64,000 bases of DNA, from assembly GCA_020723485.1 (NCBI GenBank), contig DYIU01000003.1, positions 248,001 through 312,000 of the forward strand, in the 5' to 3' direction. Position numbers and translations under genes: made by a program. The notes below the pieces were generated by a model, which saw only the letters and a list, made by a program, of their open reading frames with translations, searched no databases and was not told the origin of the DNA. Position 1 is the stretch's first letter, and every line of letters starts with the position of its first letter. Shown piece by piece: positions 20,836 to 23,865 of the stretch. This DNA is from Acidimicrobium ferrooxidans (GTDB taxonomy: Bacteria; Actinomycetota; Geothermincolia; Fen-727; Anoxymicrobiaceae).

Positions 20836-20875
20836 ATCAACTCCCGTCTCAGGAGGTGAACATCGCGGTGTGTGG

Positions 20876-20908
20876 TGGAGCCGGGGGGAATCGAACCCCC
20901 ATCTCGTC
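20876..20908 (-). pseudogene. tRNA-Ala 3'-end fragment
   Basis: These 33 bases are identical to the 3' part of the tRNA-Ala at 21125-21195, from the end of the anticodon stem through the discriminator base. No 5' half is attached, so it cannot be a functional tRNA. Such fragments are commonly left by integration or excision of an element at a tRNA gene. Confidence 0.8.
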
Positions 20909-21124
20909 GCTCGGGGTCGGCTTACGGGCACTCAAACTCCTCGCTCCCTCGCTCCCCCACGGGGGGACTCGAAGTCCCCCCGAGGGCGCTCGCCTGCAAG
21001 GCAGGCTCACTGTTGCCCCCCTATGTTGGATCGCGGGGGGATGCTCCCCCCGCGAGAGGAATAGCCCCCCTACGAGATGGGATTCGATTCCCCCCGGCTG
21101 ATTAAGTGCTCTAGTGTGGAGTGG

Positions 21125-21195
21125 TGGAGCCGGGGGGAATCGAACCCCCATCTCGTCCGCGCGAAGGACGCATCTTCCCATTGGACCACGGCCCC
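21125..21195 (-). tRNA. tRNA-Ala (anticodon CGC)
   Basis: This 71-base gene folds into a full cloverleaf on the minus strand: acceptor GGGGCCG/CGGCTCC including the G3-U70 pair that defines alanine tRNAs, a D arm, a perfect anticodon stem CGTCC/GGACG with loop TTCGCGC (anticodon CGC, reading GCG), and T arm GGGGG-TTCGATT-CCCCC. The discriminator is A; the CCA end is not encoded. Confidence 0.95.
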
Positions 21196-21241: not shown

Positions 21242-22405
21242 TTATTCCCTGCTCCACTCCTCGAGCGCGCGCCAGCGCCCCTGCTCGATCAGGTCGAGGT
21301 TGATGAGCCGCTCGGCGGTCATGCGCGACTCCAGCTCGAGCACCTTCATGGTAGCCTTGCTCGCCGGCCCGCTGAAGAGCAGCCACGTGCGGGGCTGCTT
21401 GCGCCCGCCAAGCATCTCTCCCGCCACCGCGCTCGCGTACCTGTAATAATCACCGGGCCGCGTCGGCGGGGTCACGAAGAGGTACCTCGAGAGTATGCTC
21501 CCTCCCGGCACGCGGTCGGATTTTCTGGCGAGCGCCTCCACCTTCTTTATCGCGCTCTTCATCGCTGCAGGGTCCCTGGTTATCTTCACCGCCAGAGAGT
21601 CGGCAAGCAGGTCGTCGTGCTGGTGGGCGAGGTCCAGGAGCTTCAATATGAAGGTCTCGGAACGGAATATGAGGACGAGCGCCACGAACAGCACCGCCGC
21701 TATCATGAGCTCGGTCAGGACGTACCTGATGCTCGCGGGCGAGACGAGGACCGAGGCGACCGCGAATGTCCCGAACGCGATGAGGAGCAGGCTGGGCATG
21801 AACTCCACGTCGGTCACCACAGGGGCCCTCACGTTCTCGCCGATAACCAGGTGCGCGAGCTCGTGTGCCATCACCGCGTTGGCCTCCCCCACTGAGATAT
21901 CGGCCTCCAGCATCCCGGCGGTCACGCCGACACCCTGGACCCCCTCGTCCGTCTCAAAGGCCGCGGCGTTGGCCGCGGGGTCGTCCAGCACCACCATGCA
22001 GGGTGCCTGCATCCCGGCTCCTATGGCTGCGCCCTCAAGCGCCTCCGTGAACTTGTCCGCCGATGTGGGGGCGACGTCCAAGGTCTGGCACTCGATGAAC
22101 ATCTCGAAGCGCGCCCGCGCGTACCGGGAGGCGGCATAGACGTTGTAGCCCAGGCCGGATACCAGCACCACCGCGAGGACCGCGGCGACCAGCTTTATGA
22201 ACAGAGTAGCCTGCCTCAGCCAGAGGGCGTCTGAGGCGCCGCCGAACGCCTCGTGTATCTCCCCGTGAAGGACGAGCGTCACGACCAGCATCACGAACGC
22301 GACCATGGCGGCGAAGATGAAGGGAGACAGGACCTTGAGGCGGTCCCGCGCGGTCTTCTTCCTGTACTGCTCGATGGACTCGAGCACCTTGGGCTCAAAG
22401 CTCAA
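21242..22405 (-). CDS. M48-family membrane zinc metallopeptidase
   Basis: This 387-residue protein carries the zinc-binding HELAH motif (residues 181-185) and a downstream DDLLADSLAV segment that can give the third ligand. About four hydrophobic helices flank the peptidase core (two near residues 27-90, two near 205-250), as in HtpX/Ste24-like enzymes, so it probably degrades or processes membrane proteins. The TTG start lies one base after the stop of the thioredoxin-like gene, suggesting coupled translation. Confidence 0.85.
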   Translation of the reverse strand: MSFEPKVLESIEQYRKKTARDRLKVLSPFIFAAMVAFVMLVVTLVLHGEIHEAFGGASDALWLRQATLFIKLVAAVLAVVLVSGLGYNVYAASRYARARFEMFIECQTLDVAPTSADKFTEALEGAAIGAGMQAPCMVVLDDPAANAAAFETDEGVQGVGVTAGMLEADISVGEANAVMAHELAHLVIGENVRAPVVTDVEFMPSLLLIAFGTFAVASVLVSPASIRYVLTELMIAAVLFVALVLIFRSETFILKLLDLAHQHDDLLADSLAVKITRDPAAMKSAIKKVEALARKSDRVPGGSILSRYLFVTPPTRPGDYYRYASAVAGEMLGGRKQPRTWLLFSGPASKATMKVLELESRMTAERLINLDLIEQGRWRALEEWSRE

Positions 22406-22406
22406 C

Positions 22407-22835
22407 TTAGAGGGCTTTCTTCATCGCGGACTCGAGCTCATCCCTGTCGGGCAGTCCAACGAACGTGGCGACCTTCTCGTTGGAGCCGTTGAAGACCATT
22501 ATGGTCGGGACGGTCTGGACCCCGTACCGGACCATCGCCGCGGTGTCCTGCGAGATGTCTATCTCCTGGTAGGCTATCCGGCCGTCCTGCTCGTCTGCGA
22601 GCTCCTGGACCAGGAGCTTGGCGGGGCCGCAGGTGCTTCACCCGGGCGACGTAAAAACGAGCACCTTCGGCTCCCCGGCTCCCGGCGGGCTGCTCGATGG
22701 GGAAGTCGTGCCGGGCTCGGTCGTGGTCGAGCCTCCCCCACAGCCCGTCGCCGCCGACGCGGCGATCGCGACGAGGACGAACGCGGCCATCGCGTATCTC
22801 AAGGCGCGGGTCCGGTCAGTGCGCACTTCACTCAC
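22407..22835 (-). CDS. Thioredoxin-fold lipoprotein with in-frame UGA (predicted selenoprotein)
   Basis: Read through a TGA at 22638-22640, this gene gives 142 residues: signal sequence with possible lipobox (ATGC, Cys32), a Ser/Thr/Pro/Gly linker, then a thioredoxin domain from about residue 57. The UGA sits at the first redox position of the CxxC motif: KVLVFTSPG-U66-S-T-C69-GPAK. Downstream, in the same frame, are a thioredoxin body and the conserved cis-proline segment QTVPTIMVFNG, ending at TAA. A hairpin (22600-22618) begins 19 bases after the UGA, placing its loop about 26 bases away, as in bacterial SECIS elements. The GTG start overlaps the XRE gene by eight bases (a second GTG three codons on is possible) and M48 follows by one base. 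It is probably an exported thiol-disulfide reductase. Ordinary gene callers would split it or stop at the UGA. Confirming Sec needs selA/B/C/D elsewhere. Confidence 0.8.
22600..22618 (-). promoter_or_regulatory. Candidate bacterial SECIS hairpin
   Basis: In the mRNA, AGCTCCTG and CAGGAGCT form a perfect 8-bp stem around GTC; with one pair opened the apical loop reads GGTCC, starting with the GG(U) typical of bacterial SECIS loops. The loop is about 26 bases from the UGA, inside the 16-37 base range known for these elements. Confidence 0.65.
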
Positions 22836-23184
22836 GTCCTTCCAGCCGGTCCTTCCTCCACCTTACGTATTCGAGGATGAAGAGCTTCTCATCCGTGGGA
22901 AGCTCAGATAGGAGCTGCATTATCTCGCCTGCAGGGTCGTCGGCTTCCCCGCCCGAGGCAACCATCTCGGCGGCACCTTCGTCGAGCTCGAGGAAACATG
23001 CCAGCGGCTTGTTCAGGTTCCGGGCTATCTCCTGCAGGTTAGCAAGGTGCAGCCGCCGCTTGCCGAGCTCGTAGTTCGAGAGCGCCGACTGTGTGATGCC
23101 CAGCATGGAGGCGAGCTCCTCCTGCGAGAGGCCGGCTTCCTCCCTCGCCTGCTGGATCCTCTTGCCGACGTCGCCGTAAACCAT
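22828..23184 (-). CDS. XRE-family transcriptional regulator
   Basis: This 118-residue protein has an N-terminal helix-turn-helix of the Cro/C1 type (GKRIQQAREEAGLSQEELASMLGITQSALSNYELGKRRLHLANLQEIA, residues about 6-60) and a short C-terminal helical tail with KLFILEYVRWRKDRL. It is the first gene of a three-gene unit with the thioredoxin-like selenoprotein and the M48 peptidase, and is divergent from the gene at 23326. It probably controls both promoters. The ATG at 23182-23184 is preferred; a GTG two codons upstream is possible. Confidence 0.9.
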   Translation of the reverse strand: MVYGDVGKRIQQAREEAGLSQEELASMLGITQSALSNYELGKRRLHLANLQEIARNLNKPLACFLELDEGAAEMVASGGEADDPAGEIMQLLSELPTDEKLFILEYVRWRKDRLEGRE

Positions 23185-23220
23185 TCTCACCCGGCCTTCC
23201 AGCCCTGTTCCCCCTATTAC

Positions 23221-23287
23221 ATCATAAACTCGTTCTCCAATCTATACAACATACTGTCTTGACAATAATGACATATCGTAATATCTT
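23221..23287. promoter_or_regulatory. Divergent promoter region with inverted repeat
   Basis: Plus strand: TTGACA (23259-23264) and TATCTT (23282-23287) 17 bases apart, serving the gene at 23326. Minus strand: TTGTAT (23244-23249) and TATGAT (23221-23226) 17 bases apart, serving the XRE gene. TGTC-TT-GACA (23255-23264) is a perfect inverted repeat covering the plus-strand -35, and TGACA recurs twice downstream, so it is a candidate operator for the XRE protein. Confidence 0.55.
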
Positions 23288-23325
23288 CGCTATGACAGAT
23301 TGTTATGAAGACGGGGGTGAGCGTC

Positions 23326-23865
23326 ATGAAGACGGAACTCAAGCGGGCGGCGGACGACCTGCTCTACACGCTTCCCGAGGCCGACAAGCTGGAACTCCTG
23401 GCGAAGAGCCGGTTCTCCTGTGAGGCCAGGTGGATGACGGCGATGGCGATGACCGCGGGGTGGGAGGTGGCCAACAGGCTGAACCTGGAGGTCGGCGCGT
23501 CGGTGGCGGAGGGAGAGATGCGCAGGCTGATGAAGCTCGCCGGCTGGACCGGGGCCAGGGACGACGCCGACGTGCTGCTCATGGTCTGGACGGCCATGGA
23601 GCTCCTCACCCCGAAGAAGTACTTCGACTACACGCTCGAGTTCGTCGAGCCCGGCAGGATGCTGGGGGTCCTGACACAGTGCCTGGCCTGCACCAAGGTC
23701 AAGGCCCTCGGCGTGGAGCGCGACTACGAGTGCGGCTGCTTCGGGCTGCGGGCGGGCTGGTACGCCGCGATGGGCATAAAGGCCAGGGAGACCCTTCAGA
23801 AGTGCATGCTGGAAGGCGACGAGCGCTGCGAGATCCTGGTCGAGGTGGACGAATACGCCGGGTAA
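23326..23865 (+). CDS. Conserved Cys-containing protein, DUF6125 / ATC-hydrolase-like
   Basis: This 179-residue soluble protein has a helical N-terminal half and a C-terminal half with clustered cysteines (TQCLACTKVKALGVERDYECGCFGLRAGW). The pattern resembles the L-2-amino-thiazoline-4-carboxylate hydrolase-like/DUF6125 group, but no catalytic role can be assigned. The second ATG (23326) is chosen because GGGGGTGA lies six bases before it; the first ATG (23305) lacks a site. It is divergently transcribed from the XRE regulator. Confidence 0.6.
   Translation: MKTELKRAADDLLYTLPEADKLELLAKSRFSCEARWMTAMAMTAGWEVANRLNLEVGASVAEGEMRRLMKLAGWTGARDDADVLLMVWTAMELLTPKKYFDYTLEFVEPGRMLGVLTQCLACTKVKALGVERDYECGCFGLRAGWYAAMGIKARETLQKCMLEGDERCEILVEVDEYAG

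Follow-up and report, generated by a model that had tools for sequence, protein, structure and literature searches.

Within the window, the 64,000-nucleotide stretch of DNA analysed here, the gene read on the minus strand from a GTG start at 22835 to a TAA stop at 22407 very probably encodes a selenoprotein: a thioredoxin-domain lipoprotein in which the UGA at codon 66 would be decoded as selenocysteine. The gene was assigned from the reading of its frame, from HMM matches and from a structure model. Its single in-frame TGA (22640-22638, minus strand) is followed by 76 sense codons in the translation, as the sequence-only reading of this DNA had stated, and the frames of the homologues are clean as well. 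The flanking residues read TSPG-U-STCGPAK, so that selenocysteine 66 is the first residue of a CxxC-type redox motif, U66-S-T-C69, again in agreement with that reading. Its selenoprotein interpretation is now supported by the Sec machinery of the genome, by a column occupied by U in 29 homologues and by C in 6, and by covariation of a hairpin in the U forms only. A plus-strand reading of 22407-22871 was rejected as the selenoprotein gene, the real frame being on the minus strand. Standard gene callers would truncate the protein at the UGA, giving a 65-residue fragment.

The window belongs to a genome (G000; 3.36 Mb, 95% complete) with a complete Sec system in one cluster on contig C5, in the order selD-yedF-selA-selB-selC. 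Its gene content tentatively points to a phylum such as Actinomycetota. The search for selA, selB, selC and selD, which had been suggested as a check, thus recovered all four in a single place. SelA scores 497.6 bits in the profile search, and the NCBIfam equivalogs score 328 (selD), 572 (selA), 369 (selB) and 194 bits (YedF), each above its cut-off; the tRNA-Sec inside the cluster has the anticodon UCA. SelD (L002, C5, 4900-6006, plus strand) is itself a selenoprotein, with an in-frame UGA in the active site (AG-U-AAK), and the formate dehydrogenase alpha subunit (L002, 14826-17999, minus strand) has an in-frame UGA in ARL-U-HAPS, which we take to be the classic Sec site. Judged by its gene content, the genome possesses a Sec apparatus and at least two other predicted selenoproteins, SelD and formate dehydrogenase alpha. 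The gene for this Sec-type formate dehydrogenase is located beside the sel cluster, and two RnfC/RnfD-like gene sets are nearby.

Homologues were searched for among 59 relatives, then 31 genomes of the class and then 297 of the phylum. The motif was resolved in 35 homologues from 35 genomes, 29 with TGA and 6 with TGC or TGT in exactly the same column; as the proposed alignment of position 66 was expected to reveal, only U or Cys is found there, with a clean frame beyond. Among the 31 genomes of the class, the U form occurs in 22 and the C form in 5, and 4 are without a convincing member. SelA is present in all 22 U-form genomes of the class, and a tRNA-Sec above 70 bits in all 21 that were searched for it. 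Two C-form genomes (G006, and G024, which is only 82% complete) have neither SelA nor a strong tRNA-Sec, and three others (G007, G008 and G014) retain the Sec machinery. A further genome, G009, yields a weak TGA-containing match and no clear tRNA-Sec. On a tree covering 34 of the 35 homologues, the Sec and Cys forms are interspersed, with 5 changes, at least 3 of them forced by well-supported branches, and the labels give no clustering signal (5 changes versus 5.7 when shuffled). Therefore, exchange between Sec and Cys has occurred repeatedly, and the alternation, including genomes that use Cys while having Sec machinery, provides natural material for studying what maintains Sec in thioredoxins outside the cytoplasm. 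In one genome (G256), a second frame with an in-frame UGA, glutaredoxin-like with U-PYC (L080, 1950, plus strand), lies shortly after the UxxC thioredoxin lipoprotein.

Bacterial SECIS elements are hairpins located just after the UGA, with the apical loop about 16-37 nt away and a G in its first two bases. The putative bSECIS apical hairpin of the gene (22618-22600, minus strand) has a perfect 8-bp stem, AGCUCCUG-GUC-CAGGAGCU; its loop begins 27 nt 3' of the UGA, and the loop GU is invariant in 19 U forms. The perfect stem had been described correctly before, but the loop had been given as starting GG(U), and it begins G-U as long as the last pair is closed. Ribosomes arriving at codon 66 would encounter the UGA and then this hairpin, and SelB with Sec-tRNA(UCA) would insert selenocysteine, after which translation would run on through the thioredoxin domain.

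Taken by itself, the hairpin of this gene is not significant, with a folding z of -1.33, and when its peptide is recoded synonymously, 38% of the recodings yield at least 8 bp somewhere in the allowed zone; its significance therefore comes only from the comparison across homologues. An Rfam search of the window at gathering scores returned one tRNA and no SECIS family match. Covariation was evaluated in a gapless alignment of the 19 U-form homologues, from which a clade with a shifted hairpin (G026, G029 and others) and a few U forms whose stem is unclear in this register (e.g. G002 and G256) were left out. In these 19 sequences, whose selection biases the set somewhat toward structure, 85.5% of the stem cells are paired, 6 of the 8 stem pairs have two-sided (compensatory) changes, and one pair switches between C-G and G-C in a ratio of 10:9. 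The covariation score is 0.438. Shuffling gives 0.146, with none of 500 shuffles reaching the real score, and slid registers do not exceed 0.154. Covariation is absent from the six Cys homologues, which pair the same positions in 45.8% of cells; the covariation that had been put forward as a test of 22600-22618 is thus found where the UGA is present.

Since the stem is coding, synonymous recodings served as the null, with approximate codon weights taken from the local G+C. Under this null, 67.6 +/- 2.8% pairing is expected in the U forms, and none of 5000 recodings reaches the observed 85.5%; for the C forms, the observed 45.8% compares with an expectation of 52.3 +/- 4.0%, likewise from 5000 recodings. 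The excess of pairing in the U forms only implies that codon use is constrained for the hairpin only where the UGA is present. A second UxxC lipoprotein clade, marked by FWQPGU (L034, L035, L067, L069 and L071; including G026 and G029), has a hairpin of its own with a six-base loop, CGUGCU or CGUGUU, that starts 4 nt nearer to the UGA.

The protein begins with a hydrophobic stretch, which leads into an ATGC lipobox and a Ser/Thr/Pro-rich linker. The TGC of the lipobox lies near residues 30-32, and the Ala at position -3 is slightly atypical; G31 and C32, following the hydrophobic stretch, are invariant in 19 aligned homologues, the pattern of a lipoprotein signal. The thioredoxin domain is C-terminal (residues 57-141). 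Pfam Thioredoxin (PF00085) matches residues 57-140 with 37.5 bits against a cut-off of 23.5 (E 2.5e-9), and together with this score above gathering the protein has the UxxC motif and the cis-Pro loop QTVPTIMVF (VPT), whose P110 is invariant among the aligned homologues. PF13098 also exceeds its cut-off (32.5 versus 27 bits), PF00085 scoring better. An AlphaFold2 model built with 19 homologues has a pLDDT of about 95-98 over residues 61-142. The top PDB structure matches of the domain are plain thioredoxins, and a search of plasmids returned mostly haloarchaeal thioredoxins that aligned over the domain only.

Judging from the signal peptide and lipobox, the selenoprotein would be exported, lipidated and tethered at the outer membrane face. 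There is some chance, though a minor one, that it is instead cytosolic or anchored by an uncleaved helix, and paired with thioredoxin reductase in the manner of an ordinary Sec-thioredoxin. The plain thioredoxin character of the domain fits such a location, as does a relative in G003 (L075, motif at 1648 of the minus strand), a UxxC thioredoxin with an N-terminal transmembrane helix and no lipobox. However, nearly all homologues retain the hydrophobic stretch and the G-C lipobox, and the invariance of G31 and C32 argues for the lipidated, extracytoplasmic form, which we prefer.

In the window, the selenoprotein gene stands between an XRE-type HTH regulator gene (22828..23190, minus strand), which overlaps its start by 8 nt, and a gene for an M48/HtpX-like membrane metallopeptidase (21242..22405, minus strand), whose TTG start is separated from the selenoprotein stop by 1 nt. 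The coupling of the three genes, in the order xre, selenoprotein, M48, had been proposed as an association. The arrangement is present in the window, but it does not extend to the relatives: in the flanks fetched for them, XRE is next to no homologue, and M48 is near the gene in only two, directly after it with a 6-nt gap in the Cys-form G006 (52% identity) and two genes downstream in G001 (47% identity). A conserved XRE linkage was therefore rejected, XRE being beside the gene in this genome alone, and the M48 linkage is limited to those two relatives.

The tight junction with the peptidase gene raises the idea that the UGA acts as a selenium switch, whereby scarce Sec-tRNA would lead to termination at codon 66 and to less coupled translation of M48. 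The M48 TTG, 1 nt after the selenoprotein stop and without an obvious ribosome site, would suit such coupling. We consider this improbable, since the M48 gene directly borders the selenoprotein gene in no more than two genomes, the Cys-form G006 being one of them, and is missing from the surroundings in most UGA genomes. Selenocysteine insertion as such remains our reading of the UGA.

A pseudogene or a sequencing error would require only a single-base change, from a Cys TGC or TGT mutated or misread to TGA, and we regard it as extremely unlikely. This TGA is shared by 29 genomes across many genera and several families, which excludes a misread TGC or TGT, and downstream of it the frames are clean, the residues are conserved and codon choice is constrained for the hairpin. 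Read-through or genome-wide recoding of UGA as Trp or Gly (code 4 or 25) would likewise place a UGA in frame within the gene, but it has a negligible probability because the UGA column alternates only with Cys and never with Trp or Gly, because tRNA-Sec(UCA), SelA, SelB and SelD are all encoded in the genome, and because the XRE gene (23190-22828) terminates in TGA, as had been pointed out earlier, from which the standard code follows.

As for function, the selenoprotein may be a thiol/disulfide oxidoreductase, in analogy with thioredoxins: the exposed selenol at the first UxxC position would attack a disulfide in the substrate, or oxidised sulfur, and the resulting selenenylsulfide would then be resolved by Cys69, as in thioredoxin chemistry. 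A role as an extracytoplasmic disulfide or peroxide reductase is somewhat favoured. The electron donor would probably be a membrane protein, for which the best candidate is found in the gene neighbourhoods. Nine genomes, from families f5 and f6, have as the adjacent gene, in convergent orientation, one for a membrane 4Fe-4S protein (Fer4_5) of the NapH/MauN kind. The genome of the window has a NapH-like homologue, 62% identical, at C5:908970-909839 (L111, 3471-4373, plus strand), which scores 62 bits with TIGR02163 against a cut-off of 213. It is located away from the selenoprotein gene and directly follows a gene for another thioredoxin-fold lipoprotein (L111, 2834-3304, plus strand), which has SSKS and no active-site Cys or Sec. 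The repeated pairing with thioredoxin-fold lipoproteins makes the NapH-like protein a candidate, and a testable one, but its being the electron donor is only tentatively suggested. Equally speculative is a reading in which these Sec-containing lipoproteins form the last step of a reducing system outside the cytoplasm that has not been described before, with a NapH-like membrane 4Fe-4S protein passing electrons to them across the membrane.

In families f1 and f4, acyl-CoA dehydrogenase and AMP-ligase genes are often found upstream in divergent orientation (clusters c0 and c3, named from the window's own gene copies); these neighbours likely reflect synteny rather than function. Antisense shadow ORFs arising from greedy calling (e.g. 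L084, 5707-7518) were set aside in the neighbour analysis.

UxxC selenoprotein thioredoxins are already known, and the present lipoprotein group is a new, well-supported branch of them. In a 2026 review (PMC13188914), the known selenoproteins of Table 1 include the PF00085 thioredoxin with UxxC, e.g. WP_010956703.1, for which Kim et al. 2015 is cited, as well as a thiol:disulfide interchange selenoprotein with UxxC from PF13098, WP_011366075.1; PMC9312934 is cited beside it for known UxxC selenoproteins. The lipoprotein branch is absent from that list, and the review has no words starting with lipoprotein, periplasm or actino. No NCBIfam model claims the protein above its cut-off in the profile search. 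Because of this and the absence from the list, we consider the branch new.

Among the known groups, the Sec-thioredoxin of PF00085 shares with the present proteins the thioredoxin domain and Sec in place of the first, attacking Cys of CxxC, whereas the present branch comprises extracytoplasmic lipoproteins, found here across one phylum. The PF13098 selenoprotein shares UxxC and a profile to which the present protein also matches; PF00085 fits better in a comparison of HMM scores. SaoT is also a thioredoxin-like UxxC selenoprotein, but its model (NF040730) gives no match at E 1e-3. The general thioredoxin equivalog TIGR01068 reaches 39.4 bits against a cut-off of 96.8. The best NCBIfam match by E-value is the MJ0307 family thioredoxin (TIGR00411), with 60 bits against a curated cut-off of 92.75; this family and the ancestral-type bacterial thioredoxins share the fold but, unlike the present selenoprotein, have CxxC and no lipoprotein signal. 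For a bacterial class that has received little study, the group would enlarge the selenoproteome by a branch situated outside the membrane.

Two further features of the window lie close to these genes. Divergent from xre, positions 23305-23865 (plus strand) encode a 186-aa protein that has several Cys toward the C-terminal end and matches nothing in Pfam or NCBIfam; a sigma-70-like promoter match at 23259-23287 precedes it. On the other side, 20850-21195 holds a tRNA-Ala (CGC) with apparent partial tRNA-like repeat copies alongside, and the ORFs over these copies read GGNRTPISS and WSRGESNPH.
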